Shown here: positions 10,951 to 64,000 of the stretch, piece by piece | Position numbering within the stretch: the stretch's first letter is position 1 | Layout: every line of letters starts with the position of its first letter | Source: Amphiura filiformis | Lineage: Eukaryota; Echinodermata; Ophiuroidea; Amphilepidida; Amphiuridae | Direction: 5' to 3' | NCBI RefSeq assembly: GCF_039555335.1 | Contig: NC_092628.1 | Span: 67,374,292-67,438,291 of the forward strand | DNA length: 64,000 nt | Notes under the pieces: model-generated | Databases searched by the model: none | What the model saw: only the letters and a program-made list of their open reading frames with translations | What the model was told of the DNA's origin: nothing | Translations under genes and position numbers: made by a program

Positions 10951-10954
10951 TTAG

Positions 10955-29813: not shown

Positions 29814-30003
29814 AGGGTAAGTCTACGTTAGTATCAACTTTGACTTCATAGTCGTCAATAACATTATCTCCTTGATATTGATAAAGCCTTTGATAGTGTC
29901 AATCATGACTTTTTGTTGCAAGTTTTAAGATATTTTAATTTTGATGATAACTTTATTCATTGGATTAAAAAACTTTATTCTCAAAGGTTATGTTATATCA
30001 CAA
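29814..30003 (+). pseudogene. Satellite fragment followed by LINE reverse-transcriptase piece
   Basis: 29814-29853 is a partial reversed satellite monomer (ggtaagtctacgttagtatc). Directly behind it, 29868-30003 translates as LDIDKAFDSVNHDFLLQVL, then RYFNFDDNFIHWIKKLYSQR, matching reverse-transcriptase domain 3 of non-LTR elements (xDxxKAFDSVxH). The satellite resumes at about 30473, so retrotransposon debris and a MITE interrupt the edge of the array. Confidence 0.8.
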
Positions 30004-30053
30004 AACCCAATGACACGAAAGAAATTTTCATGATTGCCCGATTTCTCCATATT

Positions 30054-30472
30054 TATAATGAAAGACAAAGATAAAAAGAAGCGTCTGACGTCACTGTCAA
30101 TCAAATTCTCTACGATCCTTGATTGGCTAATAGCGCGTATAAGGAAGGTCGATTCATCTGGCTGGTGCCGATCGGAGAAAAGGAATAGCAGTGAATGGCG
30201 AAAAATACGTACTCTTACAAGGCAAAAAGCAACTGTTCTAGGCATTGTTGACATGGTGCCTTCGCCAAAGAAAGTTTCCTACTATTAAGACCTAACTTTT
30301 GAGATGGTTTGTATGTTTAAAGGTGAAAAATTAACAATAAGACACCGGTTTTACCGCCGTGTTCAGCAACTCATATCATCACGACACTTGTAAACAAACC
30401 GTGCTCGGAGTTTGATTGACAGATGACGTCAGACGCAAACTAGTCTTTTTATCTTTGTCTTTCATTATAACT
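30054..30472. mobile_element. MITE with long inverted ends at the satellite edge
   Basis: tataatgaaagacaaagata at the left is mirrored by tatctttgtctttcattata at the right. The arms continue inward with gcgtctgacgtca / tgacgtcagacgc and gtcaatcaaa / tttgattgac, about 50 bp in all. Non-coding. Confidence 0.8.
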
Positions 30473-33593: not shown

Positions 33594-34479
33594 ATGGCTG
33601 GTAAAAGTCTGAACTGGCTATTGGTAATTGTTATTTACGGATACAACGCAATTGGAGCTTTCACTTGTGACATGGGTAAGTTGTAGGGTGTTTTTGATGG
33701 ACAATGTGACGGACCATACAGAATAACTTAGTCTCAGTGTAACAATGAAATCATTGATCAAGAAATCTGATGGAAAGTACTTATTATGGTGCTCCTGGTT
33801 TTGAAGTGAATATCATAATCATCAATTCAATTCTTCACGATGTAATCACAGGGGTATTAGTATTTGAAAAAGGTAATGATCATTTTCAACAATGTAAATG
33901 TGGTTTATTTCACATGTTCCCCTACATGTAAGTTTTTGGGGATTAGGAGAGGAGGAAACGTCCCGAGCACGTTTTTCGAGGGAGGTGATTTTATAACCAA
34001 TGTTATTTGATTCTTGTTAGTTTGCCAAGCAGGATGGCCAGTTATGCCACGTGGGAGCGAAGATAATCCCGGCTTGACCATGGTTGCCCCAGATAAACAT
34101 TTCACATGTAAAGGGCAAGTTACAACATGGCGTTACTTCTGCAAGGCATCCAATCCGTTACGAGCAATAGTATTCAGGCCGGTAGAAGGATCAAACACCC
34201 AATTTCTCATCGTTGGTATCAATGATATACCAGCAGGAGCCATTGGGACAGACGTCACCTATACCGTACCAGAATTTGAACGTATTACAGTTGAAGCAGG
34301 TGACGTAATTGGATGGGCATTTGGTAGTGCAGTTTTGGCATGGAATCTTGGAGAAAGTGTTGTACGTATTGTAGGTGGTAATTTCCATGCTGGGCTAGCA
34401 ACGGATGAAATCATTACAATCGACGGTTCTCAGTCCAATCGTGAATATTCCATCGAAGCCGATGTTGGTGTCCTGGAAG
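33594..34479 (+). CDS. Receptor exons 1-2: signal peptide and unrecognised N-terminal module
   Basis: Exon 1 (33594-33675) encodes a Met followed by a hydrophobic stretch, LNWLLVIVIYGYNAIGAF, a good secretion signal cleaved before or near the Cys. Exon 2 (34021-34479) encodes about 152 residues in a single phase-1 exon. It starts VCQAGWP; the middle has ITVEAGDVIGWAFG, preceded by TYTVPEFER. This reads as a compact all-beta, jelly-roll-like module, but I know no family name for it. The start was chosen for the signal peptide and 'accATGg' context. Confidence 0.75.
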
Positions 34480-37400
34480 GTAAATATCTAGTATTAATGT
34501 GATTAGGGCCGTTATTATGTCTATCTTGCCGAACATGTTGCCTATAAGATTAAGAAACTCATATAACAGAACCGCAATGCTAAGTGCAAAATGGGTTTGA
34601 ATATTGCAACATTGCGAGGTCGATTTTACCATTGGTGAACAATGGTGCAAGTTAAATTTTAACATTGAAATATACGAGTCAAATGTGACTTGCATTTCAC
34701 ATAATTATCATGTTCATTGTCATCGTAGTCATCGTCGTAATCATCATTAATCAGTTAGCTTTATATTCAACAAGCATTCAATGTAATGATATTGTGAACA
34801 CATATTGCAAGACGATTTGGTCGTCAGAAAGATTATTTTACTTTGGCCTTCCACTTATGTGACAATAGATGAATTCAATGCATTTGTCTGTCTTCCTTTT
34901 TTAAAAGATATCTAAGCCTGATATATGTAATAAGAGAAGAGATCTATTATAGCATTTGTAATTGTTTTTTATTTTTGGCAGGTTTCTGTATTGAGTATGT
35001 ATTTCCGTTACCACGCACATTCATCATAGATGGTAATGTTTATCCTCCACATGTATTCCTCACATCACAATCAACGGACATGATCATCGCTACCATCTAC
35101 ATTCCTGGTTTGAATTTTGAAGAGCAACACACGATTAACTCGGGTGAAAGTAAAGACGTGGTTCTCAGTCGGTTGGTGCTTTTAACGACAAGTGGTATAT
35201 TTGACAAGACAGTCATCATACGTGCTTCAGGTTAAATAGGATTTTCTCAGTTTTCATATTCTAATATTAAGGCGTTACTAATTTTGCTGCGCCAACAATT
35301 GCAAGTGACCAATTTACTTAAACTGCTGAATGGACAATTACTTGTACGTTGAATCGATTGGCAGACAGAAACATCATATTATTTAGGGTTTAGCAAATAC
35401 AGAGTAATATGTATGGAGTTGTAAGTAATACGGGTAGCTTTTATGGAGTTTAAAATAATGGCGGTGTTATCATTGATTCTAATTCCACATTATATAGATG
35501 ACTTTTTCATACGTCCTGTTTAGTCTAAACGGCGATTAGACTAAACAGGACGTATGGAAAACCGAACTGTAATCAATGTCAATGATTGCTTTGTATCTAC
35601 TTATATATAGGTCTTATAACTGTCATCAGTATTGACAACCCTTGGGGTGGTGGTGATGCATTCCAAGTTTTACCAACAACACAACTCGGTACCGAATATT
35701 ACGTACTCACATTACAGCAGTATTTTGGCGGATATCCATCATTCTTCAGTTTTGCAGCTCTATCTGAGAAAACCAGCGTGAATTTTACCACAAAGGCAGG
35801 AGAGTACCATGAGATTGTTTTAAATGCTTATCAAAGCTACCGTTTTGATGGTGCGTTATATGAAGACGTGACAGGGACGTATATACACTCCGACAAACCA
35901 GTTTCAGTAGTCGCTGGGACTTACACCCGTGGTCCAGGGCCGCCGTTTCATTGCTGCGATGACGGAGTTTTAGAGCATATTTCACCTGTCCGGAGCTGGG
36001 GATATAAATTTGTGCTTGCACCTTTTTCTGCGGTGACTTGTGGATATGCCTATCGCATTATCTCGTATGAAAACGCAACCATTATCCTATCACATTTGGA
36101 AGGTAGGAAACATAATATTGTCCATATTTCATTTAGGAAAGTATATAGAACCACACAAAACAGGGTTGAGTTGGGTGCTTGGATTTATTGGCGCTATACC
36201 GGTTGCCAGTAAGAACTAAGTCGAATCAAACCAACTGTACGTAATTTCGTCTGGGAACGGTCGGAGCTCGAACCCAGGCGGGACATCAGTGTTGCGAAGC
36301 AATTATAGACCCGCTACACTAACCCGCTCCCCCGGATGGGGCCAGGTGAAATAACAGAATTGTCATGATATATAAACACATACATAAACCATGTTTATTT
36401 TGGTTACTTTTCAGAACCAATTCAGCTTGAAGCAGGTGGTATTTATCATGGGGATATCACATCCAGTGTAATGATCATGATTTCTTCTACCAAGCCCATT
36501 GTTGTCGCCCAGTATATCAAATCCTTCACTACGTGCGGTATTATTGCTGAACCAGCTATGGTCATGGTCCCCGCCGTCGAGTCATTCTTCACCAATGTCA
36601 CTTTCCCGGTGTTTGAATTCACCATTGGTGGTGCCCGATATTATTTCATTAATGTTGTGATCAGTTGCGAATATGTTGACGGACTGATTCTTGATGATAT
36701 GGAACCAATGTCTGAATGGGATCATCTGCGAAGTGATGATAATAACACGTGCGTTGTTAGTGGACCAGTGGCAATTGGAACGCATTCGGTTGGTCATGCT
36801 GATCCTTCAGCCAAATTTGCCGTGTCAATCTATATGGTTTGCCAATGCTTATCTTCTTACGCATTCCAAGCAATAGCGGCCCCGTTTACAGGTAAGAATG
36901 ATCATTGTGAAAACAAATATGTGTGGACAAAATATGCTGGTAAAATTGTAATGAACAAGATAGCTTACTTTTCAGATGGTCGATGATCAGGAGGCGTAGA
37001 CGTATAAATTGAATTTGTGATTATACACTAAGCCAAAAAAGAAACTTGAACAAGGTCCTTGCACAGATGATAGTTCCCAAAGACTAGTGGAATAGTGTGG
37101 AACAATACCTGTTTTTTAAAGAAAGTCCGTAAAAACGGAAAGCAGCACCGTTTTGTAAATTGTCATCTGTTCAACGATTCTCACAGATTTCTTATGCTGG
37201 GTGCCAATTATTGGGCAGAGAATGTGGTCCAGGAAGCTGTTCAATATTCAGTGCATTTTGATGTGGTGTCAGTTGGACAACTGCTTGGTTACTGACATGT
37301 GTATAGAGTAGAGTATTGAGGCAATCCTGTGGTAATTTTGGTTAATTTTGATGGACAGGATTTTAAGATAATAATATGACCTTGTGAAAAATGGTAAGTT

Positions 37401-40400
37401 TCTTTTTTGGCTTAGTGTATAGTTCTTTAACTATTGGCTTTATAAAGATGGTTTTTATAACCTAGTTGCTACCTCAGTTTTCAATCTATAGAATGTTTTT
37501 AATGCACGTGGACATCGCATTGCTATATCTTGTCATTTATAGCTTCGATCAACTTCGAAGTTTCTGCAATGTCCGTTTATGAATCTTCGGGTACGGCTTC
37601 TGTGGCAATTACTAACAAAGGCCCAGGGACTGGAACTGTGTGTAAGTACCGGTTAATATAATTCTTAATAGTCGGGACAGATGCCTGATTAAGTCAATAA
37701 AGTTTGATGTTTGGTCCATGTTAAAATGTTCTCCCGTCGGATTTATCAGTCTTGAGTTCAAAATCTTTGATGAAAACCATTGTTTGACAGAATCTCCTTT
37801 GCTCTTCTTGACTCCCTGCTTGTTCTTGAATAAGTTGATACTGGTCGCACCGTACCGAAAGTGACTATGTCAAAAATGTTTAAACAGATTTTTGGACTGG
37901 AGAATCAGATTCTTATCAAAACAAAACATATCATTATGGTATTTTAGGGCTTACATGCCCTGATAACTCTTTTAAGATACATTGTTTTGCAACGGCACAA
38001 AGGGCCCTCAACCTGTCGAGAGGACATCCATCCATTGAGTTATTTTTCATTCATTTTATATTGGTTGTGTCGTTACCCAGGGCCGGATTTACCATAGGGC
38101 CAGATGGGCCAGGGCCCAGGGCCCCAAATTTTTAGGGCCCCCAAAATTGCCCTGTGTTGTGTGCATCTTCCATTTTAGCCGAAAAACACCATGTTTTGTT
38201 TTGGGCCAAAATAGCCTACAAAAATTGGCCTATTAAATAGCGAAGTCAGTTCGGTCTAAAATTTCGCGCAAATGTCCTGGTAAAATTTACAACTGGGCCA
38301 CTTGAGTGCACATGCCTTCCTCACGGTGCGTTTGGGGCCTCCAAATTTTAGCCTGGCCCAGGGCCCCCAAAACGGTAAATACGGCCCTGTCGTTACCTCT
38401 TATAATGCAAGGAGAGAGCTGCTGGTTGGCCTTTACAAGTGCAGACGTTTCATATAGCCTAATATTCAATCAATTGCGCGGGGCAATTATTTTTATCAGG
38501 TTTGCACGTAATATAGTGGTCAGTTATTAAATATAGCAACAGGATCATGTCACGATTTTTTTTACTACAGATTTTCGAGTGATACCCGAAACAGCAGTTG
38601 AATATGAAGATTACAATGAGCGTTCAGGATCTGAATTGATAATACCATGTGGAAAAAATCTAGTCGACATAGAACTTATTGATGATAACATATCTGAACC
38701 TGATAAATACTTCGTTGTGGAGATAACGGGTGTACAAGTTGGTAGTGGATGTACGAAAACCACCGTTACAATTTTGGATGACGATCGTAAGTCAATGCAA
38801 TTGAAAATTGTGTGTTACATTAACAAATAATATGGGTTTGCTCATTGAAAATTTATAAACTAAATTAATCAAACATGCGAATAATGGGAAATCTCTCAAG
38901 TAGAAAGCACTTAATAAGAGGTTTTTGGATATTTTATTTACTAACCCATTTGTAGTAGGTAAATGGATAGTTATCTACTTTTTAATTGCAATTGTATTGC
39001 CCACTATACAGCATTCGTCGTTTTCAACCAAGATACTGTATCAACTGTGGAATCTTCTGCTAATGTTTCATTACTACTCAACAACACCGGCTCTGGGAAT
39101 GCTACCGTTTGTAAGTAATGAAACAGATAATTATTTTTAGGAGAATATAATTTGCAAACCATGTTACTGTTCAGAAAACAAACACTTGTAAGTTGCGACT
39201 GTTAAGTATATTCACTACCAGATTCCCCCAGAGGTTTACTGTTACCAAACTACTTCATTGGTATTGTAGAGTACCTATGTGGGTACTCTAGAGTATGTAT
39301 CTAAATTACATGTACAGTACAGTACAGTAAAGTACAGTACAGTACAGTACAGTACAGTATAGTACAGTACATACACTGGTACTGGTACTGGTACATATAC
39401 TGGTACATATACTGGTACATATACTGGTACTGGTACTGGATTGGTACTGCACTCGTTAGTAGTTGGTAGTTAGTAGTTGGACAGCAGCGTACCTCTGGGT
39501 TCGGCAGTCATTAATTTTGTATTTCAATCGTTAATTCCGCTGTATAGCCTATAGAACTACTTAACTTGCATCCAATGCAAATAGTAAATAGTAATAAAAT
39601 CAAAACCAAGTTACGGTTTGATCAGCTCGTAATCGGCAGGCCTTTAACATTAATATTAATATATTTTCTTTCGAGAATTGTCAAAAGTATCACGAACTAT
39701 TAATTCAAGTCCTGTACTTCGTCTACTGTATTTAACACACATGACCAGATATGTCGCTTAATAATAATAATAATAATAAAATGCATTTATAAAGCGCATC
39801 AAACTAAAAGGTCACTATGCGCTGAACAACTTAATCACTCTTAATGTGGGTATATTTTTCGGCGTAGTGGTAAAAGCGTAAGATTTCCTGTCGATTACGA
39901 GCTGATCAAAGTGTAGTTATGTTTTTTATTCTAAGCACGAACTTTTAAACAAAGTAAAGTAAATCTAGCAAAACCAAACATTGAAACAATTTACAACTAC
40001 TAGTTAATAAGGGACACCTCCGTAGAGGGCGCCCCAAAACCTTACAAAAGGGCCAAATTTTCTTTGTTTGCGAGTTACGAATTGTAACACAATCTATAGA
40101 CTCAGCACAATGTCAAATTTTTCTGCAGACTTTCAGAAAATTCAGAGCTTTACAATAAAGGTCAATAGAGAGAAAACTAAACAGCAATTTAACACGTAAA
40201 ATCTCTATATCAAAGTATTCGCTACTTGCACGGTTCCGCCATTATGCACTATGTGGGAGAGCCTCGAACTGGCAGCATACATGAATGGGAATTGAACTAG
40301 TCATAACGTTCTGTGTAAGGTTACATAATTCTTCCTTTCATGTATGCTGTCAGTTCGAGGCTCTCCCCGCACATAGTGCATAATGGCGGAACCGTGCAAG

Positions 40401-43132
40401 TAGCGAATAGTATCTTCAACGATGCAGTGATAATTAGTGGACATTGATTGATGTACTCGTTAAATTGAAATAAAAAATAAAAGCACAAATGAGTGACTTC
40501 AAGTACTTCTAATTATCATTCGGTATATGATACGGGGTGATACAGAAAGCTCAAACGCAATGAGCCAGATATAATGGAACTTCTAAAAAAAAAGTATGTC
40601 AACTTCAACGATACAATGATAATTAGTGGACACTCATTGATGTATACTCGTTAAATTGAAATTGAAATAAAAGCACATATGAGTGACTTTCAAGTGCTTT
40701 TATTTAATTAGGCTCATTCAATATACAGAAAGCTCACAAACTTAATGAGCCAGATATAATGAAACATGCGCGGACTTTCTATTCATTCAGCCAATGAATC
40801 GATCGATTAAATTGTTGGGGGATAATTCGTGATAGATTTACTATATTGTTTTTGTTTTGTTGTTGTTGTCATTGTTGGTTTTGTTTTGCTTTTAATACAA
40901 ACAAGATAACTTCTTAAAGGAGGATTTCGTGATCCTAGCATCCTCTTTTTATGACATGTTTCAGTACATATCCACGAAAAAAGCCTATTCCCAAAATTTC
41001 AGTTGATTCCGATTTTGCGTTTGTGAGTTATGCATGATTATGTGTATTACACTGCTCCATAGACAATACGTTGTAATTTCGTTCTGGTGCACCAGAACGA
41101 AATTCAAATTTCACGATATCTTAGCTAAACGAATTAATCTGCAAGAGATATTTTGTACATAAACATTATGTAGCCAGAGGTTTCAGCGATATAAAAATCT
41201 CAACTTTTTTTGAGAAAAGTGGGGGGGATGAGGCTGTGAAATGCCCCTTTAACGTTGCTGTGGTGTTTTCCTGAAAAGGGCGAAGATATTATTGATCACC
41301 TAGTAATATGTATGCTCTTTCAAACATGAAGTTTAACAACAAGCACCACATAATGTGTGGATAAGTCTAATATAGCATAACCATGAATAGTTTCAACAAC
41401 TTTAGTACGCATAACCCGTCTTGAAGAAATTGTTGTTGATACATTTCTGGATTTCATGAAAAAACGGATAAATAAGAAAGAAAGAGTCCCTCTGGCTTGA
41501 TCATTAACCATACTTTTTTTAATTTTTTTTCTAAAGTGCTACGAATGGTAAGCGATTCAGCAATTGCAGGTGCTGATTTCATAATCGATGACGAACCCGT
41601 CTTTTTACCACCTCACTCCGACAGACAGATTTTCATTGCAATAGTGGATGATATTGAATTTGAAATGACAGAGCATTTTAATGTTACCATATATGGAAGA
41701 GATGTTGGAATCGGGATCACGACAACTGTGATTTCTATTTTAGACGATGACCGTATGTTTCTAGTATTATTTAGTATCTGTTTCTTTTACTTCTTTTTTC
41801 AAATAAAAAAAATCATTCGCGTGCAGTGGCGTAGATTTCTTTTTGACATTGGGGGATGAAGTTGGAAAAAAATCTTGAAGTATAGTCAATCCAGCACCCT
41901 TTGGCGACAGAATTAGTTTATGATATAAATTTTTGCTATTTTGAAGCTAAACTGATGAAATATGGTGTAAAAGTAGATTAAATGCGCGCGAAGCGCGCGA
42001 AAATTTGCACTTTTGGGGCTAAAATGGGCAAATATGAGGTTAATTTGGTCAGAAACCCATTATCAGGCGTCAACATTGGGGGGGGATGATTGTATGGACC
42101 ATCCCCCCCTGGCAAAATATTGGGGGGATAAATCCCCCCATCCCCCCGGGATCTACGCCTATGTTCGCGTGATCACTGTTAAAGAAAGATTTTGCTTTTT
42201 AGTTTCTATTGTGTGGTTCTTGAATGTAAGCTGTATGGCTTTGGCAATGCATTAACGCTTCCACGATGTTCTGACTAAGCTGTTGTTTGGCGTGTAGACA
42301 TTTTTCTGTAAATGTGGAAGTTGCAAGCTGGAAGCACAAATTCTCTAATTCCCATTGAATATTTGTATCCAAATTGTGTATTCCAATATTTCTGTACAGC
42401 TGCGATTGACTTCTATGATGAAAGTATTTCTATTAGAGAGGCATCCGGGACTGCAACAATCAAATTTATTAACATTGGCAATGGTGGCGGTATCGTATGT
42501 AAGTAAACGAATAAACAGGACATAATAACACTCCTGTCGTATTTTAATATTTAAGTGACAAAGTCATTGGATAGGGGCCTACACACAGTGGTCTGTTGAG
42601 ATGGATAAGCAATATGACTCATTCAGGGTCTCATCAGTTCTCACAATTTCTTGTTTAAAAAAGAACCACTAACCGCGAAATGTGGATATCCAATTATTTA
42701 CCCCACAGGGCTACAAAGAACCACTAACCGCGAAATAATTATGGATATCCAACAAGCTTACACTATAAATTAGCCCCCGATAGAGGGCAGGGCCTGAAGA
42801 ATGGATAAAAAGTTTTTAAAAAATCATTAAGGTTATTATTGCTTTCTTGCCCCAGTATCAACAAAAAACATCAAGGCCGCAGGGCCGGCAGGCCCGAGGC
42901 GGGTGACTCCCATGCGACGACTAAACACTCCAAATGGGACCCTGCAGGGCAAGAAAGCAACAGTAACCTTAATGTAACATTGACTAAAATTAACCATATT
43001 TACATTTTAACCACTTTTACTGATTTAAACATATGTTAATATTACGAATGAGGATAGGGTGTATTATTATTATTATTATTGTTATTATTATTATTATTAT
43101 TATTAGTGTTATTATTATTATTATTATTATTA

Positions 43133-43166
<34 letters not shown>

Positions 43167-46100: not shown

Positions 46101-49100
46101 TATGTAAAACTGTGCCATTTTAAAGAAAAGTTGAACGATGATGGTGCTATTTATTTTAAATCTTGTGTGCATCTTTACGAGCGGTAGATACTTGTATAAT
46201 GGTATTAGAACATCAAAAAAAAATTAAAAAAGACTAACTAATGGGAAGGAAATTTTCAAAAACCTTTTATCATGAAATGTAAGGAATAACTTTAAGAGAT
46301 ATATGTAAATAGCGCCCTCTATTTTCACACAAATGTACGGTTTATATAATAAAAATCACAAACAAGCAGAAAAGGTGATTACGCAAATCTATGTTAAAAA
46401 TAGCTAAAGAAATATATGTGAATATTAGGGTGATAGCTGACGGTGTTGTCCAGGTCTAGAATTTAACATTATATAATGTTTTGTGAGAAAAAAATCAATA
46501 AATGATCACATCAAACAACCGTGTCTAGGATTGATCAAAGTAAGCCCCAAGTTAATCTATGTCTATAGCTCATGATGCAGTCATGTCTACAGTAGAAGTC
46601 ATCTCGACCTTTGCAGGACTTAACCCCATTAAAAGCTATTAAACCAAGATAACACTCATTGAAACAGCTCAACTGATTAAATCGGATCTTCTCTGGTTGT
46701 GCACAAGTGTCTGTTTTCATGTGCGATATCGCAATAAAGCTGGTATTCATAGCTTCAGTTGGGTAACCGATTATAAAGGAAACGAAAGGAAACAATGGTA
46801 TGTGTACCTTTGTTCACGAAATGAGACAATGGCGTGCTTTTTGTAAACCAGCATTCTTGAAAATGAGCAACATAATGATTGTTGACTTAACACGGTTTGG
46901 AAATAATTTCTTCATATTTTTGGTGTTATCTGTCGTTTACATATCCTTCCTAAAACACAAAAGTGCGACCCTCTCCAAACACCTAAATTAGCTAAAAATT
47001 TAGGACATGTTACAAAACTATATTGTCTAGAATTTTAGAAGAGTACTTTTAATATTGGCCGGTTATTTTTTCACACAGCGACGTTAACTAGGCAATGTAC
47101 TATTACCTATAACATTAACTAAAACACCAAAGTACGAATATTTCCAAACATCTAAATTAGCTAAAAATTTAGGACATGTTAAAAACTATATTTTCTAGAA
47201 CTTTAGAAGAGTACTTTTAATATTGGCCGGTTATTTTTCACACAGCAACGTTAACTAGTCATATCCCCATACTTTTAACGTAGGGCTATTTGTAGAGGTC
47301 ACGCGTCAATGGGAAAGAGCACTGTGTATTGTGTATAGGAAAACGGACAGTAACTGCAGTATGAAGTTTCATTTCTATTATCATAACATAATTCTAACCT
47401 AAAAGCGGGAATTATGCTATTATGAAGAAAGGTAAAAACTAGTATAGAAAGGATAAACATGGATAGATTTAGCTGATCATGAACAACTATTAAAAGCTAT
47501 TAAAGTCCTGAAGTTCTTTTTCTTGTATCACAAAGGTTCGTTAGAGGAAGAATGCATTGTGTCTCTTGACAAAGCTTATGATTTTGAGTCTGATTTGAAC
47601 TTAGCAGCAGAAGATCAGATTGCACAACTGGAAAATATAGCAAAAGTAAGTTGTACCAATATCAATCTGTGTTCCTTTACAGTTTTCTCAAGGGTTATAT
47701 AGGCCTACATGTACATTATCTAGCTCACGAGGTGAACCAGTTTGTCTGGAGTATACAGCTTTTCAATACTTTCAACTCAGCTATTTTTAAACACAACTTC
47801 AACACTCTTTTTTTCTAAGCTGGTAAAAAGTGGGCTCAGTATTTTTGGCAACGTAGGAATACGTTTTTAAAGAAGTTAACTGTATTATATGAGGGGTATA
47901 TTTTCCGTAGGGTTTATAATGTTTGAATCACAGCACGGTGGCATTGCCTAACAGATAGGGCGTTCGACTCAAAAACACGAGGTTGTGGGTTCGAGTCCTG
48001 ACAGGACTAACATGTTACGTCCTTGGGTAAGACACTTTATTTCGCTTATCCCACTTCACCCAGTTGTAAAATGGGGGATGTTAGGGCCCGGGGTTAGGGC
48101 GTAGTCAGATTAGCGCCGTTTTGGCTGCTAGATGGTGTTATATATCCTAGTGGCTGCGGAATAAATGTAAATCACTTTGATATCCGTTTAATTACCGATC
48201 TAAGGCACATCATAATCTATTTCGTGCAGGAGTTAGTTGAGAATATTCTAAACCGTGTCACGGATGGCGATGACAGAGTAAAGGTAGCATGGTGTACAAC
48301 GGAAGTGATGATTGCCTTGGCGTACCATATACCCACAGGAGATGAGCTTAGAATATCGCTGACAGATAGGGTTCCGGGTGCGTATCCAGCTTCTCCTTTT
48401 ACTTCATTATTTTTGCAAAATTTCTTTTTAAGTCCGTCAGTAAAGTAGATACTATCGCTAGGCTAACATTTTTTCATATTCTTTGAAACCCATGGTCGAA
48501 CCATGATTATAATCCGTGTCATTTTACATTTTGTTTACAGTGTTTGCTGCAGTAGCAAAAAGTTTAGTTTCAGATATGTTTGGTGATAATATAACTATTA
48601 TCATCAATAGTGACAACCAGGATGGACCTTCAGTGAAGATTTTGGGTCAGCAACTTGAAGAGTTTGGCACAGGTATTTTCCTTTAGTTTCTGTGCGCTTA
48701 CTACTCTGATGTTTCTGTCCTGCGTCTATACCGATGGGTGGTTTAAATACCGCCCCTGACGGTTCGTCCCTGATGTACTAAGACGCTATAAACATGGCTA
48801 AAGAGCCCAAACGTATCAATGTAATTGTAGGACCATCCTTTACACTCATTTTGAGGATACAAATTATACAACCTATACATTGCCCGGAGGTACGGTATGC
48901 TATCAAAGTCGAATGGGTAAAGGGGTGCTTGCCACCCAGAAAGTGTTATAATAAAAGCCAAGAATATGATTTTGAGTCTTTATTGGACGAAAGTTCATTT
49001 TTTGCATATCTACAATGTAAGCTACTGTACGTAGTTTACAAAATGTCTCATTTGAAAGGTTTGCGGAGATTATAACATCATTGTGACGTCATACGAGGCA

Positions 49101-52100
49101 TGCTGGTACTTTTGTGGGTATCAATGGAAAGAGGACACCCATAATATCTTACTAATGTTACCAAATAAAAATACATACATCTAGTTTTGAAAATCAAAAT
49201 GCTTGATGAGGGTTAATAATAAAATTTAAATTTTAGTAAACTTAACATTTTGTACAAAAATGTCTATTTTTTCCAATAATAGGTAATACTAGTGTACTGA
49301 TTGTGACATACCTTGGAAGGGGAAATGGAACGTTAGAATCAGCTCAATTATTTATTGATCACGTCAGGTATGTAAAAACCTTTAATTGTCCGAACAAATC
49401 TCCAAAATTCACCTTGATTTTAAACGTATAAATCAATTTATTTTATCCCCCCCCCCCATGTAATGTTGTCCGCAGGAGTAGTTTAGTTCTTAGAATAATT
49501 TGATTCAGGACATTAGTAATTATGTCTACAAATTATATCTACCACTTATAAAACGTTGTGAATGTTAGCATAACATATTATATGTTGCCAGGAGGTTCGG
49601 CGGTTGGAAGGACAACTTTACTGGCTCTTTTGTCCTTGCCATATGCAGTGCAGCGCAAACCCCGAAGGTGTACTGTAACTTGCATCTTTTGTAGGCCTAC
49701 TTATACGGTATGTGATTGGTGAAAGAATAATAGGACCGCTATCAAATATTGATCTGGTAAACTTATCTATTCAATCGTGTGTAGAGCCAAAACGTGAGTT
49801 TTTGTTTTTCCGTAGACAAAGTTCAGAAGAAAGAAATCAAACAATCTTGGTTGGTAGTGGAATACTAAGCATCCAATTCCTGAATAATGGCACAAGGCAT
49901 TCCATTTCACCTTACTTTGACCTACCATATGCGGTATGTGGTTTCTTTATTCATTATCATCATCGTCATCGTCGTCATCATTATCATCATCATCAGCTTC
50001 GAACTTCATTTACAAGCATCATCTTAATCAGAATCGATTAACTTAATTTTCAACATACATGCAGAACTAATATTTATATTGGGAGGTAATCCAGCGGTCG
50101 GAAAGTCTACTTTACTTTGACTTTTTCATTTGTGACAGGAACTGAGTTCAATAATTTTCTTTTATGTGTCTTTCGCTTCTTGCAGAAATCCACGTCCAAC
50201 AAATGCAAGGGAAGGACTGAAACAGATGAAACACCGACATGTGGATTTTGGAATTCAAATATTGAGTAATACTATATAGTCAAGACCATAACATAACAAA
50301 TTCTTTCCCTGAAGTGTTAACAAATGTAATTAGTATCTACCAAACGATTCTATTTAATACCAGAACAATTGTGTTTTTCCGGGTACTTGTACCGTAGTTT
50401 AAAATAACAACCATTTTTACTGGTTTTGAAGGCCGATGTTTAAAGTATTCTTGCAAAGCTCTGTCTGAAGTTTAACGCCACATGAATAACCCATGATGCA
50501 GTCATGTCTACAGTAGAATTCACCGCGACCTTTGCAGGACTTAAACCCCATTAAAAGCTATTAAACCAAGATAACACTCATTGAAAACAGCTCAACTGAT
50601 TAAATCAGATCTTCTCTGGTTGTGCACATGTGTCTGTTTTATATGTGCGGTATCGCAATGAGCTGGTATTTATAGCTTCAGTTGGGTAACCGATTATAAA
50701 GGAAACGCAAGGAAACAATGGTATGTAGACCTTTGTTCACGAAATGAGACAATGGCCTGCTTTTTGTTAACCAGCATTCTTGAAAATGAGAAACATAATG
50801 ATTGTTGACTTAACACGGTTTGGAAATAATTTCTTCATATTTTTTGGTCGTTTACATATCCTTCCTAAAACACCAAAGTACGAATACTCGTATTTCCAAA
50901 CATCTAAATTAGCTAAAAATTTAGGACATGTTACAAAACTATATTTTCTAGAATTTTAGAAGAGTACTTTTAATATTGGCCGGTTATTTTTCACACAGCG
51001 ACGTTAACTAGGCAATGTACTATTACCTATAACATACACTAAAACACCAAAGTACGCATATTTCCAAACATCTAAATTAGCTAAAAATTTAGGACATGTT
51101 ACAAAACTATATTTTCTAGAATTTTAGAAGAGTACTTTTAATATTGGCCGGTTATTTTTCACACAGCGACGTTAACTAGGCAAATCCCCATACTTCTAAC
51201 GTAGGCTATTTGTAGAGGTCACGCGTCAATGGGAAGAGCACTGTGTATTGTGTAGGAAAACGGACAGTAACTGCAGTATGCAATGTTTAAAAAAAGCAAT
51301 TTAGCAATCAATTAATACAATATGAATGTATTGATTCAAATAATTTCCAGCGCATATTCTACCAAAGGATTGGCCACAGGATTGACCAAAATCAAAGATG
51401 GCGACAACGTGTTATCATGCTATTCAAACCATACAACAAGCTTTGCTATTCTGTTGCAAGTTTCTGAGTGTACTGTGGTAAGAAGGGTGACAATTTGTAT
51501 TGCCCATATAAGCATGTTATAGCAGAAATATGTTTTGTTTGGATTCTATAACTATTTCTTCCTCATGTCAGTAATCATGGCTAAATATTTCACAAATCTT
51601 TTGACTAGCAATCAAACCAAAAGCAACATAAACCTCTCAATCAATCAAGGTACAAACATAACACACAGCATGTGATGAAATCTAACCATTTTCACTTCAG
51701 TATCATCATCTTTAAATCGAGAATAGCTTCGCATCATTGGTGATATATTTCCATGCTTTGTTTCCACAAAAAGGTACCACAAAAACACCAAAAGATTCAG
51801 GATATTTTGACGAAGATGTTTTCTTCCATATCTGTCATAGCGCTTATCATCACCATCGTAGTGTTCTTATCATACGAGTAAGTACTTTAGTATATACGCA
51901 CTACAAAAGTATTGCAACATTGCTGAAAAAAGAATTGAACATTGATCCAATATCCTGTCGATTTCACCAAGGTGTCACTTGTGGTAACATCGTGCGCCTG
52001 TTCCAGTGCTAATACAATGGCAAAAAAAAAATGAATCCGTTTGAATGCAGAAACCAAAGAAACTTTAGTCCACAAAATGTCCAGATGCCTTTATTAGAAT

Positions 52101-55100
52101 GGTCGCCAAATAAATTAATCGGTTTCTGCAAGGTATCAGGAAAATGGTTGCGGAAGAGAAGTTGCGCGGAAGTTGTTATTGAACAAAAATAAATAACAGT
52201 CAACGTGATGGCTGACGTCTTGTAAGGGTTGTGGGATTCGGGAATTTTAATTGCAAAATAATAGGGTCACGTGGTTACTCCATAAAGGATATAATAGCAT
52301 TTAAACACGTAATGAACACACAAGTATTTTTGGTGCGATTCAAGGTCATCCGGTATGTGCTAGCCACGAACCGGGCCCCGAGACCTTTTTTCTTCTAAGT
52401 CTTCCAGACCTTCAAGGACCTTTGCCTTCTAAGGCTGGTATTTTCTTGCCGACACATCTATGAATCATTCTCCCACCTTGCATTATTTTCCTGATAGCTT
52501 GCAGAAACCAATTAGGTTCTTCGTCTCTGCATGTATTGAACATATTGAAACGGATTTCAGTCTTTCCACCATTGTAAGCACTAGAATAGCCGCATGATGT
52601 GACACGTTCCACCCCATTTATTAGCTATAATCTTACTTATTTCTGCAAAGAACAGTAAGTCATGTGAAATCGACAGAATATTGGATGAGTGGTCAACTTA
52701 TAGTTTGCGAAATTCTTCTTTTTTCAGCAATATTGCAATACTTTCGTGTAGTGTGTATAATGAAGGTGTGGACGGAGCATACATATGTTTCACTAAATAA
52801 CAAGGTTGCTGCTGCGGATACTGTTGCAGCTGTTGCTGATCCTGATCTACACCTACAAAATACTCAATAATGTTGCAAGAAGCAATATCTAATTGCTGAT
52901 GTTAATATTATAATTCAAATGCAGTGCGTGTGACTTAATTATACGTTGTTAAGATATTGAAAACCTATTTCGGACATGATCAGATCACATTTCTTTAATA
53001 ATATACTAATACCCGATTCGAATTCATAGGTCCCTACGTAGAGCTGAGCGTAACCAACTTCATGTTAATCTTGCGGCATCTCTGCTTGCTGCACACGGGT
53101 TGTTCTTGGCAGGAATTGATAGAACTGAGAACAAGGTGAGAGCTCCAAACTGATCAAAGCCTCATAAGATTCATTTTAGTTTGGGGGAGTTAGAAAGGTG
53201 AACCCGGCAGGTGAACTTTCCATAAGAATGTATACGCAATGCATTTCTAAAAGCTCCTGGATAAGAGCAGAACGATCCGGTGTCCAGAGGTTACAATATA
53301 AATTATATTTTTTGTATCAACGTGCATTGCATATTGGACTTCGGCATACAATATAATAATTATGTTCATAATCCTAAACTTCTGAAGATATGTAGATAGA
53401 TCTGAGGTAGGGAGGGGAGTACTCAAATATTGCTGGTAAGCAAGTGCCGCCTAGCTTTCAAAAATGCGTTCTCCAGATCGGAGTTTCGGGATGGTGGTCT
53501 CGACTATGAGCTTTGTATTACCCTTTTGGCTTAAATGCCTATACATTTCTCAGAAATAAGTGCTTGGACTTCAAATTTGAAGCTAATTTGAGTGCATTTG
53601 GAGAGAAATTTAGCCCGAAATTTAGCCAAAAGGCCCCGAGGACTTCAGGGGTCCCCGGAATGAAAAGAGCTTGAAAAGGGGCATTAAAGGCGGCACTGGC
53701 CCGAATAGTGCAAGGTATATGACATCCACCCAGGTAGGATTAGATTTATCAACGTTCCCTTCTGAATTTGTGAACTAAATTACTCTGTTTGCTTTATACC
53801 TCTACGATATTCTAGATAGTTTGCAAAGTGATTGCCATGCTACTGCATTATCTATTCCTGGCTGTCTTTGGATCCATGTTAGTTGAGGGAATAAACCTAT
53901 ACTACAAAATTGTAAAAGTATATGGTGCGGAGAAGAATCGACTGCCGATTTATATGGGAATTGCTTGGGGATTACCAGCTCCTATCGTAATCGTTACTGC
54001 TGGGATAAAATTCGAGAAGTACACTTCGGGAAACAGGTAAAAACGATGGAGTTGATGACCATGCATGATACTGAACTTTTGATATTGATGATGTCAATAC
54101 TGATGATAAAGTTGAAAAGCAATACAAATGTCCATCATTTTCACACATTGGATTTCAATGCAACATCTTTCATGTTATCTTCCATTTTCTTTCTTTCCTC
54201 TATAGTTGCTGGTTGAACACTGATGATGGTATAATCTGGGCATTTGTCGCACCGGTTATAGTCGTTATCATTGTAAGTATAAAGCTCACGAAAGTAGAGT
54301 ATATCTTGCGGCGGATTATTACATTCCTTAGATTTGTTACATTCTTTCTAACTGATTCTTTGTCAATTACAAATGTTTGTAAGTTTTGTGTATTTTGAGT
54401 TACAGTTATATCGACAACACACATTATGCTATATTTTTGTAACATAATATCACTATTCTCCCAACATCAATATGTCAGAGGCCTTAAAAGCAAAAGAGCA
54501 TTCAATTTTTAACGTGGGTTAGCAATCGGAATGAATAGATTCCGAAAACAACCGATATTTTAATGCAAAATTATCATAATTCATTAACTTACCACTATGG
54601 CTATTGACTAGTATGTTTATTTGGGAAATATTACAACTTGTTTCATTTGTTTGAATTGTAGTGCAACACCTGTATCCTTTTCATGATTGGCTATATTTTA
54701 TATAAGTCTGCTAATGCAGTAAGTGATGATGTGAACAAGATGGCGGGCACCAGGTACGTAAATGTGAATATAAAAGTAGGTGTATTCATGGACTGTGCAA
54801 AATGCGCTTTAATTTGGGTCAATATCGTATTATTCAGTTCCCCTCGGTCCCCTGGCAACTTACAATTCATACCACTTCGTCATTTTCAACATAAATGCTA
54901 ATCCCGGAAATGGTAAAACTACACTATGGTCAATGAGTGCTTCTACTCGATCAAAAATAACCTGTGCAAAATTTTCATTTTATGTTATCAAACGGTTAAA
55001 ATAATTAACGACCTCTAATTATGTAACTCAAACGGTTGCTTTATTTTCTACAGTAATATAATGTACCTATTTTTCTTGCAGAACATGTATCAAAGGCGCA

Positions 55101-57134
55101 TTAATTTTAACCCCTCTACTTGGCACAACATGGCTATTTGGTTTGCTGGCAATTGATAAAGCAGCAATTGCTTTCCAGTACTTGTTCATTCTTTGCAACT
55201 CACTCCAAGGATTGTTCATCTTCTTGATATACTGTGTCATGAATAAAGAGGTAAGTGAAAGACATCAGTCAATTTTTTATCAGGTAGAGGAGTTAGAAAT
55301 CAAGCAAAATATGCATTTGACTGTAAATTTTAAGATCATGACTTTTGAAATGCATTTTAAAAACCTCCGAAAACGGGAGATGATTTTGTTAATATGTTTT
55401 TAATCATGAGCTCTTTGGTCATTGGGTGACCGATGAGAAAATGAAAACTAAAAAGTTAGTATATCAACGAAAATGTTTCTAATATACACTAAGCCAGAAA
55501 AGAAACTTATAGTTTTTCACAAGGTCATACCTTAAAATCCTGTGCATCAAAATGAACCAAAATTACACACAGGATTACTTCAATACTCTACTCTAAACAC
55601 ATGTCAGTAACCAAGCAGTTGTCCAACTGACACAACAGCAAAATGCACTGACATGGAACAGTCCAATAAATGGCACCCAGCACAAGCAATCTGTAAGTGG
55701 AATGTTTCTTGAAGAAAGTGCGTGAAAAAATGAAATCAGCCACGTTCCACACTATTCAACTTACTCTTTGGAAATTGTCATCTGTGTAAGGATCTTATAC
55801 GCATTCTCACAGATTTCTTGTGCTGGGTGCCAATTATTGAGCTTTGAATGTTGCCCAGGAAGCTGTTCAATGTCAGTGCATTTTGCTGTTGTGTCAGTTG
55901 CACCAAATGCTGGTGACATGTGTTTAGAATAGGGTATTGAAGCAATCATGTGTGTTATTTTGGTTCATTTTGATGCACAGTATTTTAAGATATAGGGTCC
56001 ACAACTTATAAGTTCCCCCTAAATATTTTTTTAAATAAATCGAAAAGTATTTGACGAAATGCAAACGTGTAAAAAGATATAAGTAGCCTTATTTGCTTTA
56101 CACATGTGGGCTAAATTATAGCGTCACACGTAATTGGGTTCAGTCAAATAAGGCTACTTATATCTTTTTACACATGTGGGCCAAATTATAGCGTCACACG
56201 TAATTGGGTTCAGTCACAGCGGTTCATTATGTAAAAAAGAGACCGTTTTAAACAGTGTTAAAAGTTGCATCGGAGTCCATAGGAGTCAGATCTCAAACAT
56301 TACAGTAGGCCATGCCTATTCATGTGTTTGTTAAAGAAAACCTGACGGCTATGGACTCAGGTGCAACTTTTAAAACGGCCTCTTTTCTTACAAAATCTTT
56401 TTTTTTTTTTGGCTTAGTGTACATGTAGCATTAAATTCTACCCTCTATTTACGTTATTACCCAAATGTTATACCCGCACAGGTTCAAAACGTTGTCAGGA
56501 AGTCCTTGGAAAATAGCCGATTTTTTGAAGGGCGAAGATCAAACCAAGTTATACCACTTGAGCCAACTTCGGTAACGTACAAGTTTATCTGCTTGCATGC
56601 TATAGAAAAGTTATTACTACCATGACTACTGTTGTACAAAGGAAGAGAGACATTTACAGTGACACAGAAAGAGACGACGAGAGACAGAGTCAGGGGCAAG
56701 AGACACGAGGAGAGGAGAGAGCATGAATTTGGCAAATAATGTAGTAGAAAACTAAGAGTTGTAAAAGAAAACATACGCTACCGTGCCTCCGTGGCAGTTA
56801 CATATGGATTAAGAATTTTCTTTATCTTGACCCAAGGCTTACAGTAATATTATTTGTTTGATTTGTTGGGAGTGGCCTTCTTTTCCTTGATCTTTAAGTT
56901 TCTTTCCATATATTATATTATAGGCTAGCATGCTTATCAACTTTATAGCCTGACTTGGGCATTTAATTGAGCCGGGAAAAAGAAGCAACCTTTTAACAGA
57001 CAAATTCACAACAAATCCAGACAATTGAATATTCATTATTCATTACATGCAATACAGCAATCCATCTTAAAATCATGTATTTCTTCTCTCAACAGTCAAC
57101 CAAGACAACCTCGGTAGTGGCACCAACAGACTGA
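33594..57134 (+). CDS. Adhesion GPCR with IgGFc-binding-type and Calx-beta ectodomain
   Basis: Exons with GT..AG borders and consistent phases: 33594-33675, 34021-34479, 34982-35230, 35611-36102, 36415-36891, 37543-37641, 38571-38786, 39012-39110, 41537-41752, 42400-42498, 43192-43413, 44488-44586, 45844-46062, 47536-47645, 48230-48377, 48541-48672, 49283-49367, about 49726-49933, 50186-50265, 51351-51477, 51774-51877, 53030-53135, 53816-54036, 54206-54272, 54662-54753, 55082-55250, 56482-56571, 57096-57134. The product is about 1600 residues: signal peptide, novel module, IgGFc-binding domain, four Calx-beta domains, GAIN/GPS, seven membrane helices, 40-residue tail. Inferred role: a surface receptor sensing calcium-dependent or mucus/matrix ligands and signalling through G proteins. 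One gene is inferred because every junction keeps frame; transcript data are not available here. The 5' border of the exon near 49726 is uncertain. Confidence 0.85.
34982..36891 (+). CDS. Receptor exons 3-5: IgGFc-binding-type domain
   Basis: Exons 34982-35230, 35611-36102 and 36415-36891, about 400 residues, correspond to the N-terminal domain of IgG Fc-binding protein (FCGBP) and its invertebrate relatives. Matching landmarks in order: VFLTSQSTDMIIATIYIPG, QVLPTTQLGTEYYVLTLQ, TGTYIHSDKPVSVVAGTYT, HISPVRSWGYKFVLAPF, SSTKPIVVAQYIKS, MVMVPAVESFFTNVTF and VDGLILDD. In FCGBP this region begins a secreted mucus protein; here it is the outer part of a receptor. The ligand is unknown. Every junction is phase 1. 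Confidence 0.85.
35504..35561. repeat. 25-bp hairpin just before receptor exon 4
   Basis: Arms ttttcatacgtcctgtttag + tctaa (35504-35528) and the matching reverse complement (35536-35561, one mismatch) surround a 7-nt loop. It ends 50 nt before the exon 4 acceptor. Confidence 0.75.
36240..36335 (-). mobile_element. tRNA-like element (SINE head) on the minus strand
   Basis: On the minus strand: gggagcgggttagtgtagcg (tRNA-like 5' half with box A) ... cctgggttcgagctcc (box B). It lies in receptor intron 4. No full cloverleaf was confirmed, so a SINE or tRNA pseudogene is preferred over a working tRNA. Confidence 0.45.
37026..37417. mobile_element. Mariner-like MITE
   Basis: Ends CACTAAGCCAAAAAAGAAAC and its reverse complement, flanked by TA on both sides (37024-37025 and 37418-37419). 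392 bp, no transposase. A longer relative with the same ends is at 55487-56419. Confidence 0.88.
37543..38786 (+). CDS. Receptor exons 6-7: Calx-beta domain 1
   Basis: Exons 37543-37641 (99 bp) and 38571-38786 (216 bp). The fold signature is complete: INFEVSAMSVYESSGTASVA, then a Y-x-x-Y 'AVEYEDY' loop, IELIDDNISEPDKYFVVEI and the closing TILDDD. The acidic residues at the ends are those that bind calcium in the Na/Ca exchanger, integrin beta4 and ADGRV1 relatives. A mariner-like MITE and a hAT MITE sit in the neighbouring introns. Confidence 0.88.
38078..38389. mobile_element. hAT-type MITE (CAGGGCCGGATTTACC ends)
   Basis: Left cagggccggatttacc; right ggtaaatacggccctg. The 8-bp duplication tcgttacc lies at 38070-38077 and 38390-38397. 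312 bp, non-coding, in receptor intron 6. Confidence 0.92.
39012..41752 (+). CDS. Receptor exons 8-9: Calx-beta domain 2
   Basis: Exons 39012-39110 (99 bp) and 41537-41752 (216 bp), separated by a 2.4-kb intron full of repeats. Motifs: DTVSTVESSANVSLLL, GADFIIDDEPVFLPP, VDDIEFEMTEHFNVTI, ISILDDD. Phase 1 at both outer borders. Confidence 0.87.
39308..39460. repeat. Microsatellites (GTACA)n and (TACTGG)n
   Basis: A run of about a dozen 'acagt' pentamers (39308-39372) passes into 'tggtac' hexamers and 'tggtacatatac' dodecamers to 39460. Intronic. Confidence 0.85.
39617..39911. mobile_element. Inverted-repeat element, copy 1, with nested insertion
   Basis: Ends tttgatcagctcgtaatcgg and the mirror image cgattacgagctgatcaaa. 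A second copy at 63118-63366 lacks the internal (taa)n-plus-'aaagcgcat' piece found here at about 39755-39832, so that piece is a later insertion. Confidence 0.8.
40216..40409. mobile_element. Fold-back element with ~72-bp arms
   Basis: tattcgctacttgcacggtt ... catacatgaa at the left is mirrored by ttcatgtatg ... aaccgtgcaagtagcgaata at the right, with few mismatches and a ~50-nt centre. Confidence 0.85.
40411..40775. repeat. Tandem duplication of a ~180-bp unit
   Basis: 'cttcaacgatgcagtgataa' to 'gagccagatataatggaac' recurs with small changes from about 40602 to 40765. Non-coding, in receptor intron 8. Confidence 0.75.
41075..41104. repeat. Perfect 30-bp palindrome
   Basis: The half-site aatttcgttctggtg is followed without spacer by its exact reverse complement. 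Centre between 41089 and 41090, on a GTGCAC hexamer. Confidence 0.95.
41824..42163. mobile_element. hAT-type MITE (CAGTGGCGTAGAT ends)
   Basis: Left cagtggcgtagattt; right atctacgcctatg. The 8-bp duplication ttcgcgtg lies at 41816-41823 and 42164-42171. 340 bp, C/G-homopolymer-rich, non-coding. Same family as the pieces in both DCXR copies near 8060 and 15583. Confidence 0.9.
42400..43413 (+). CDS. Receptor exons 10-11: Calx-beta domain 3
   Basis: Exons 42400-42498 (99 bp) and 43192-43413 (222 bp). Motifs: IDFYDESISIREASGTATIK, TATDDFEVVLPTFIP, IIDDLVAEPDEQFGVEITG, ITIMDDD. An (att)n microsatellite runs to within about 10 bp of the second exon's acceptor, replacing the usual polypyrimidine tract region. 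Confidence 0.87.
42826..42974. mobile_element. Short MITE with 28-bp inverted ends
   Basis: cattaaggttattattgctt ... mirrored by aagcaacagtaaccttaatg. 149 bp. Just upstream, the sequence around cactaaccgcgaaat is duplicated (42665 and 42721). Confidence 0.8.
43062..43185. repeat. (ATT)n microsatellite before a receptor exon
   Basis: About 40 att triplets with a few gtt interruptions, ending about 6 bp before the acceptor region of the exon at 43192. Confidence 0.95.
43897..44183. mobile_element. MITE with ~48-bp inverted ends
   Basis: aatcatatcaatcattttag and onward at the left is mirrored by ctaaaatgattgatatgat at the right; inside, gacagcgccatctgttgtt pairs with aacgacaacagatcgcgc. Intronic, non-coding. 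Confidence 0.85.
44488..46062 (+). CDS. Receptor exons 12-13: Calx-beta domain 4
   Basis: Exons 44488-44586 (99 bp) and 45844-46062 (219 bp). Motifs: INFVTEISVVRESVGVALLF, SVIDYDINSLANVSLGP, IVDDAYGEYDEKFYVEISG, VIILDDD. The first acceptor (accgaag) is poor in pyrimidines. A long inverted-repeat element fills the intron. Confidence 0.86.
44627..45488. mobile_element. Long inverted-repeat element, copy 1
   Basis: The left 'caatgggattgaaggtatca' ... 'catgcgcgtattcc' is mirrored by 'ggaatgcgcgtatgatgtca' ... 'ccatcccattg' at the right; more inverted stretches lie inside. A relative is at 51964-52612, also in an intron of the same gene. The 99-residue frame inside looks spurious. Confidence 0.75.
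46571..47363. repeat. Dispersed repeat, copy 1 (receptor intron 13)
   Basis: From 'catgatgcagtcatgtctac' to 'acagtaactgcagtatg', about 790 bp. It recurs at 50492-51280 with high identity. Inside are two tandem ~165-bp subunits containing ctaaattagctaaaaattta and ttttaatattggccggttat. No coding potential. Confidence 0.85.
47536..50265 (+). CDS. Receptor exons 14-19: linker and GAIN domain
   Basis: Exons 47536-47645, 48230-48377, 48541-48672, 49283-49367, about 49726-49933 and 50186-50265. The first encodes an acidic linker (SLEEECIVSLDKAYDFESDL) and the next a helical segment (ENILNRVTDGDDRV). Then come VFAAVAKSLVSDMF, TSVLIVTYLGRGNGTLESAQ, RIIGPLSNIDLVNLSIQ and an ISIQFLNNGT-type strand. This order fits a GAIN autoproteolysis domain: helices, then the beta sandwich. 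The donor after 48377 is the weaker gtgcgt. The border before 49726 is ambiguous. Confidence 0.7.
47930..48075 (+). mobile_element. tRNA-derived SINE
   Basis: A tRNA-like head (gcctaacagatagggcgttc) with box B gggttcgagtcc near 47987-47998. It is followed by the body 'ccttgggtaagacacttta', a common SINE core in deuterostome genomes. In receptor intron 14. Confidence 0.65.
50492..51280. repeat. Dispersed repeat, copy 2 (receptor intron 19)
   Basis: Close copy of 46571-47363 in the same orientation, with the same two internal tandem subunits. It ends about 70 bp before the GPS exon. Confidence 0.85.
51351..51477 (+). CDS. Receptor exon 20: GPS motif
   Basis: Together with the end of exon 19 (CGFWNSN) this encodes the GPCR proteolysis site, ending SCYSNHTTSFAILLQVS. 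The usual core is C-x-C-x-H-L-(T/S)-x-F-A; here the His-Thr-Thr-Ser-Phe-Ala order is kept, so cleavage would fall between the two Thr. Several Cys and the second Trp of a standard GPS are missing, so self-cleavage is uncertain. Confidence 0.75.
51774..55250 (+). CDS. Receptor exons 21-26: seven-transmembrane domain (class B2)
   Basis: Exons 51774-51877 (TM1: SSISVIALIITIVVFLSY), 53030-53135 (TM2: NQLHVNLAASLLAAHGLFL, then GIDRTENK), 53816-54036 (TM3 HYLFLAVFGSMLVEGINLYY and TM4 YMGIAWGLPAPIVIVTAG), 54206-54272 (Cys-Trp of extracellular loop 2, then TM5), 54662-54753 (end of TM5, loop 3) and 55082-55250 (TM6 LGTTWLFGLLAI, TM7 YLFILCNSLQGLFIFLIYCV). These are the signature stretches of adhesion GPCRs. 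The Cys before TM3 (IVCKV) and the Cys of CWLN give the conserved disulfide. Confidence 0.93.
51964..52612. mobile_element. Long inverted-repeat element, copy 2
   Basis: Left 'aaggtgtcacttgtggtaac', right 'catgatgtgacacgttcc'. The interior shares 'actttagtccacaaaatgtc' and 'accaattaggttctt'-type stretches with 44627-45488. In receptor intron 21. Confidence 0.65.
55487..56419. mobile_element. Mariner-like element, larger relative of 37026
   Basis: Starts CACTAAGCCAGAAAAGAAAC; the right end mirrors it less perfectly as ttggcttagtg. TA on both sides (55485-55486 and 56420-56421). The left 500 bp form a big hairpin around about 55760. The right part contains a duplicated 'acacatgtgggc...gggttcagtca' unit (56098 and 56170). 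No transposase frame. Confidence 0.8.
56482..57134 (+). CDS. Receptor exons 27-28: cytoplasmic tail
   Basis: Exons 56482-56571 and 57096-57134 (stop TGA). They encode about 42 residues: VQNVVRKSLENSRFFEGRRS, then a Pro/Thr-rich end. The helix-8-like 'NKE/VQNVVRK' start is typical of adhesion GPCRs. The tail is very short and does not end in a standard PDZ ligand. Confidence 0.85.
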
Positions 57135-57228: not shown

Positions 57229-57234
57229 AATAAA
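57229..57234 (+). terminator. Polyadenylation signal of the receptor gene
   Basis: AATAAA about 95 bp after the TGA stop. A short 3' UTR is implied. Confidence 0.6.
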
Positions 57235-63973: not shown

Positions 63974-64000
63974 CTGCAAAAAAACAACCAGAAAATGCCA

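Follow-up and report, generated by a model that had tools for sequence, protein, structure and literature searches.

Does a single gene of the ophiuroid Amphiura filiformis place an FCGBP-type recognition head on an adhesion G protein-coupled receptor (GPCR), or do two neighboring genes only appear to be one? The question arises from a window of 64,000 nucleotides (contig NC_092628.1 of assembly GCF_039555335.1, positions 67,374,292 to 67,438,291 of the forward strand), for which a preliminary description had proposed that exons join in frame from a signal peptide through an IgGFc-binding domain and four Calx-beta repeats to GAIN/GPS and a class B seven-helix (7TM) domain. All positions below are those of the window, and all exons lie on its plus strand.

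Gene model, head, and stalk

Positions 33594 to 57134 were joined by hand into a single gene model of 28 exons, 4,806 nt, and 1,601 amino acids, which begins with the ATG at 33594 and contains no stop codon in the joined frame before the one at its end (57134). The first AATAAA after the stop codon is found 95 bases on (57229 to 57234). From outside to inside, the model encodes a signal peptide, a stretch of about 150 residues, an IgGFc_binding head, four Calx-beta repeats, a GAIN-like region with a GPS, seven helices, and a short tail. The proposed joining of the exons in frame from the signal peptide to the 7TM domain is thus borne out in its domains, order, strand, and phases by an open model of 1,601 residues, and the earlier exon numbering, with its joins 5-6 and 13-14, agrees with the 28 exons found here. 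The preliminary description had also called for a domain search of the predicted protein; in Pfam at an E value of ≤1, four families were returned, each above its curated cut-off, comprising the anticipated IgGFc_binding, Calx-beta, and 7tm_2 as well as GPS. We put the odds that this is one gene for an adhesion GPCR anchored in the membrane, some 1,600 residues long, including the outline of its mechanism given below, at roughly three in four.

Splice sites were chosen visually while the open frames were being followed, and the agreement of phases across exons is therefore partly a matter of choice. Only a single frame is open in 20 of the 28 exons, and every one of introns 1 to 13 is in phase 1. 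For exon 12, an acceptor at 44459 was ruled out, as it gives stops; the acceptor at 44488 restores the frame and yields 99 nt, the length of exons 6, 8, and 10. When the sites were ranked by leave-one-out scoring against the 1,487 GT and 1,281 AG dinucleotides of the gene region, 10 of 54 were weak, namely, the donors of exons 3 (rank 556 of 1,487), 19 (481), and 27 (962) and the acceptors of exons 18 (rank 747 of 1,281), 23 (520), 27 (479), 22 (351), 28 (307), 19 (303), and 25 (246). Two in-frame alternative starts of exon 18, at 49822 and 49816, have a better summed score than the modeled start at 49726 and would cut 30 to 32 residues from the GAIN-like region. The start of exon 18 and the C-terminal tail (exons 27 and 28) are the least certain parts of the model, and the tail past TM7 is the least sure of all. 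Apart from the exons of the model itself, a tblastn search of the window with the model at an E value of ≤10 gave three matches (lowest E value, 2.9), none of which is a convincing tandem copy or paralog.

The head is encoded by exons 1 to 5. Exon 1 (33594 to 33675) carries the ATG and a signal-peptide-like start (residues 1 to 27), with a hydrophobic peak at residues 10 to 28. Exon 2 (34021 to 34479) by itself encodes the stretch of about 150 residues (residues 28 to 180), for which no Pfam family was matched even at an E value of ≤10. Its AlphaFold single-sequence model is of low confidence (mean pLDDT, 38.2) and contains strands only; the stretch is possibly beta-rich and perhaps represents an undescribed domain. 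Exon 3 (34982 to 35230; residues 181 to 263) lies immediately N-terminal of the Pfam IgGFc_binding match, the first and second parts of which are encoded by exons 4 (35611 to 36102) and 5 (36415 to 36891). This match (residues 279 to 567; E value, 2.4e-38) covers profile positions 1 to 296 of 297, so that the FCGBP-type domain of the earlier account is present at full length; the head comprises more than that domain, with exon 2 adding a separate stretch. FCGBP-type domains are present in many animals, and to our knowledge their ligands are poorly known. The name "IgG Fc-binding" is uninformative on the ligand in an invertebrate. No relative of the head (exons 2 to 5) was found among solved structures at an E value of ≤10. 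According to a review, FCGBP-type domains resemble N-terminal regions found in certain bacterial proteins (PMC9354016). A scan of prokaryotic genome contigs for relatives of the IgGFc domain gave 39 pattern matches, of which none was confirmed, and a search of prokaryotic plasmids in near mode with one exon as the query gave no match.

The four Calx-beta repeats named in the preliminary description were recovered by Pfam as four stretches (E value, 2.8e-27). Each repeat is formed by an exon pair of 99 nt and 216 to 222 nt: exons 6 (37543 to 37641) and 7 (38571 to 38786) encode the two halves of the first repeat, exons 8 (39012 to 39110) and 9 (41537 to 41752) those of the second, exons 10 (42400 to 42498) and 11 (43192 to 43413) those of the third, and exons 12 (44488 to 44586) and 13 (45844 to 46062) those of the fourth. 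The repeats have a DD...E...DDD pattern in common. Among solved structures, the NCX1 domains match this part best (E value, 4.4e-8); 10 of the 12 matches at an E value of ≤1 are sodium/calcium exchangers, and the other 2 are fragments of MAP kinase kinase kinase 3 (0.88 and 0.97).

The join between head and stalk

The head and the Calx-beta stalk meet across intron 5-6 (36892 to 37542; 651 bp), and it is here that two same-strand genes, one for a short secreted FCGBP-type protein (exons 1 to 5) and one for a Calx-beta adhesion GPCR (exons 6 to 28), might have been stitched together. Mistaken gene predictions are known to create spurious domain architectures in metazoans (PMC3927609), and some features would suit two genes at this place: translation continued beyond exon 5 ends at a stop after 31 residues, and the intron holds five acceptors scoring at least 4, each of which leads to a very short terminal reading. 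Exon 6 also has an in-frame Met (residue 596), although it lies within the Calx-beta domain and comes without a signal peptide. Against these features stands the space available. A MITE-like element (37022 to 37421), whose 26-nt terminal inverted repeats are perfect, makes up 61% of the intron and leaves about 250 bp for the end of one gene and the start of another. The donor of exon 5 (rank 4 of 1,487) and the acceptor of exon 6 (rank 5 of 1,281) are the best donor and the second-best acceptor among the 27 of each in the model, and they are in the same phase, a match that would be expected by chance in one of three cases if taken singly. Reading upstream from exon 6, a stop is met at 37500 to 37502 with no ATG in between. 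The intron also contains neither AATAAA nor ATTAAA, nor any ATG exon whose phase-1 donor reaches a score of 3, although this is weak evidence, since 41 of 118 ordinary 651-bp tiles outside the gene have no polyadenylation hexamer and 57 of 118 have no ATG exon of that kind. The sequence is more likely to be read correctly as one joined gene, in which four Calx-beta repeats link an IgGFc-binding-type head to an adhesion-type 7TM domain, and what weighs for this reading is the short remainder of the intron once the transposon is subtracted, together with the strength of both of its splice sites; we consider two stitched genes improbable.

A diverged, partly inverted relative of the MITE-like element (about 80% identity in pieces) is found at 55483 to 55992 in intron 26-27.

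The second join, between exons 13 and 14, has lower ranks (donor, 62 of 1,487; acceptor, 32 of 1,281), and its intron is longer (1,473 bp) and contains nine polyadenylation-like hexamers. A signal-like ATG exon with two modest phase-1 donors begins at 46138, from which a short GAIN-7TM form with its own promoter in intron 13-14 is possible. The locus may accordingly give several products, i.e., the full receptor along with a soluble head made by retention of intron 5 or a headless receptor made from the promoter in intron 13-14, which is compatible with a single full-length receptor. The in-frame stop shortly past exon 5 would end a soluble head, the ATG exon from 46138 would start a headless form, and alternative splicing and alternative promoters are described for adhesion GPCRs in the available portions of two papers (PMC13197933; PMC11711277). 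However, intron 5-6 has no polyadenylation hexamer with which a soluble form could end, and the internal start occurs at the background rate, a signal-like ATG exon with such donors being present in 7 of 52 ordinary tiles of the size of intron 13-14. Additional products from this locus are conceivable, and we do not expect them on balance.

Intron 13-14 also holds one copy of a repeat of about 800 bp (46565 to 47363), whose second copy is in intron 19-20 (50486 to 51280); the two are 93% identical, and each contains an inner pair of repeats of about 145 bp.

GPS, putative tethered agonist, and seven-helix domain

Downstream of the stalk, the full-length model continues with exons 14 (47536 to 47645; residues 1010 to 1046), 15 (48230 to 48377), 16 (48541 to 48672), 17 (49283 to 49367), and 18 (49726 to 49933), which encode the presumed GAIN region. 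The GPS is split between exon 19 (50186 to 50265), which carries its first part with the motif CGFW, and exon 20 (51351 to 51477), which carries its second part and the tethered agonist. The Pfam GPS match (residues 1254 to 1298; E value, 2.4e-6) scores 28.4 bits against a cut-off of 22.5. Of the GAIN/GPS pair in the preliminary description, the GPS motif was thus matched before TM1, whereas the modeled protein has no match to the GAIN profile at an E value of ≤10, and GAIN is presumed from the GPS and from position.

The cleavage triplet is HT|T (codons at 51430 to 51438), which keeps the His at P-2 and the Thr at P+1 of the H-X-S/T given as canonical in an excerpt of one study (PMC13062082). 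The sequence directly after the cleavage position, TSFAILL, fits the tethered-agonist consensus TxFxxLM reported in part of another (PMC13197933), except for the last letter, L in place of M. Two GPS cysteines are kept (Cys1256 and Cys1287), and the other two positions are occupied by L1275, in place of the cysteine of the Gly-Cys motif, and S1289, in place of the second cysteine of CxC. Both of these cysteines are kept in five of the five alignments among the matches listed, which cover ADGRL3, ADGRG6, and CELSR1 (8 sequences matched). On the presumed pairing of these cysteines, the predicted GPS is without one of the two usual cysteine pairs, which are usual but not defining for adhesion GPCRs. 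In the portions of the literature at hand, the Gly-Cys disulfide is placed in all human adhesion GPCR GAIN domains and elsewhere in "most" (PMC13062082), and two highly conserved disulfides are said to anchor the region near the cleavage site (PMC13197933). Because the residue at P-1 is Thr, an NHT sequon (N1290-H-T; codons at 51427 to 51435) also overlaps the predicted cleavage site. N-glycosylation is reported to be needed for the cleavage of ADGRE2 constructs that lack the full 7TM domain (PMC12488864), and a sequon at the site itself might therefore either favor or hinder cleavage.

With one cysteine pair lost, Thr at P-1, and a sequon over the site, cleavage appears doubtful from the predicted protein. 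The receptor may not cleave itself and may signal, if at all, without dissociation of its fragments; the replacement of two cysteines that are kept in all five of those alignments and the placing of NHT over the site favor this possibility, whereas the retained His at P-2 and Thr at P+1 oppose it. F1258 presumably opposes it as well: one study names as important a Phe by which the His is held in position (PMC13062082). Judging by the numbering, that residue is probably the Phe of CxFW, which is kept here as F1258. We regard an uncleaved receptor as a serious possibility, at somewhat less than even odds.

The seven helices are encoded by exons 21 to 26: TM1 by exon 21 (51774 to 51877), ICL1 and TM2 by exon 22 (53030 to 53135), TM3 to TM4 by exon 23 (53816 to 54036), the ECL2 cysteine and the start of TM5 by exon 24 (54206 to 54272), the end of TM5 and ICL3 by exon 25 (54662 to 54753), and TM6 to TM7 by exon 26 (55082 to 55250). 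The cytoplasmic tail starts in exon 27 (56482 to 56571) and ends with the stop codon in exon 28 (57096 to 57134). The class B assignment is confirmed by the Pfam match to 7tm_2 (residues 1318 to 1549; E value, 7.1e-54) and by a PDB search of the seven-helix part, which returned 114 sequences at an E value of ≤0.01 with ADGRD1 as the top match. Among the best 60 of these 114 matches, ADGRD1 (1.3e-57) and ADGRL3 (1.3e-55) are far ahead of the best secretin-type receptor (3.6e-27), and no ADGRV is included. By its 7TM domain, GPS, and agonist, the predicted protein is an adhesion GPCR.

Comparison with known proteins and proposed mechanism

The receptor resembles ADGRD1 and ADGRL3 in its 7tm_2 domain, its GPS with H-X-T, its agonist-like TSFAILL, and the aligned cysteines before TM3 and in ECL2. 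It differs from them in having no HormR match, in lacking one GPS cysteine pair, and in the domains of its head and stalk. With ADGRV1/VLGR1, it shares Calx-beta repeats directly ahead of a GAIN-like region and a 7TM domain, but it has only four repeats, an IgGFc_binding head, and a tail ending in PTD. The ADGRV1 ectodomain also includes EPTP repeats and a LamG/pentraxin domain, for neither of which the modeled protein has a Pfam match up to an E value of 1. The contrast with ADGRV1 that had been drawn for this locus is fair as to domains, and Calx-beta alone is insufficient to make the receptor an ADGRV relative. The likeness to FCGBP lies in the full-length, N-terminal IgGFc_binding domain; FCGBP is a secreted mucus protein, whereas the protein modeled here is a predicted membrane receptor with no Pfam match at an E value of ≤1 to the VWD-C8-TIL repeats, which make up most of FCGBP, as an excerpt of a review states (PMC9354016).

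Immune-type heads placed on adhesion 7TM domains are described, in the available parts of the reports, for amphioxus, with shuffled SRCR, C-type lectin, and Kringle domains among others (PMC2246102), and for a sponge, with SRCR (PMC4302439). The receptor here would be the result of the same kind of event. Such events are thus already known, although the present pairing may be novel; those parts do not name IgGFc_binding as a head of these receptors (PMC2246102; PMC4302439). The legend of a sponge figure names IgGFc-binding, Calx-beta, and GAIN among the domains found in several classes of receptors, GPCRs with a GPS among them, leaving the carrier protein unspecified; that figure may already show a similar receptor (PMC8242945). 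No description of an IgGFc_binding adhesion GPCR was met among the papers listed by the literature searches, which cover the field in part. IgGFc_binding, Calx-beta, and an adhesion 7TM domain are probably a real domain combination, and a moderately surprising one.

We infer the function of the receptor, including binding by the head and signaling, wholly from the predicted protein. Introns 1 to 13, all of which are in phase 1, point to exon shuffling in that phase as the most likely way in which the FCGBP-type head was added. The four Calx-beta repeats would form a stalk, probably stiffened by calcium. The head may bind a surface, mucus, or microbial ligand, and the stalk would transmit pull or binding on the head to the GAIN-like region, where TSFAILL would be released or exposed and would switch on the seven helices; the loss of one GAIN disulfide may ease the release of the agonist. 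Genes annotated as FCGBP are found in a coelomocyte cluster of an echinoderm (PMC11925454) and appear in a study of sea-star wasting (PMC10320347), as far as the available parts of these papers indicate, which would fit a possible immune role of the receptor.

More broadly, some invertebrates might possess a membrane-anchored FCGBP-type sensor in which the mucus/opsonin-type IgGFc_binding module is coupled directly to a G-protein signal through a force-bearing Calx-beta stalk, and in which a dropped disulfide and a sequon on the cleavage site tune GAIN for an easy or glycan-controlled release of the agonist. This generalization is speculative, and we consider it unlikely in this full form. A cell could in principle sense whatever sticks to the head module, and the receptor, carrying an FCGBP-type domain, would offer a direct readout of candidate mucus or microbial material as G-protein signaling. 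It would illustrate how, in animals that lack antibodies, recognition by a mucus-type module could be linked to a fast signal. The predicted GPS would also provide a natural test of how far GAIN tolerates the loss of a disulfide while still holding or releasing its agonist.

A tRNA scan found no tRNA. Elsewhere in the window, two regions on the plus strand (10651 to 11061 and 15055 to 15315) resemble fragments of a gene for a short-chain dehydrogenase, with matches to adh_short (0.0026) and adh_short_C2 (6.6e-05) that are both below the Pfam cut-off. A possible coding exon of a neighboring gene on the opposite strand lies at 63792 to 63974 on the minus strand and has no Pfam match. A reverse transcriptase fragment of LINE-like appearance is present at 29862 to 30071 on the plus strand, where the match to RVT_1 (1.2e-06) is just below the cut-off.
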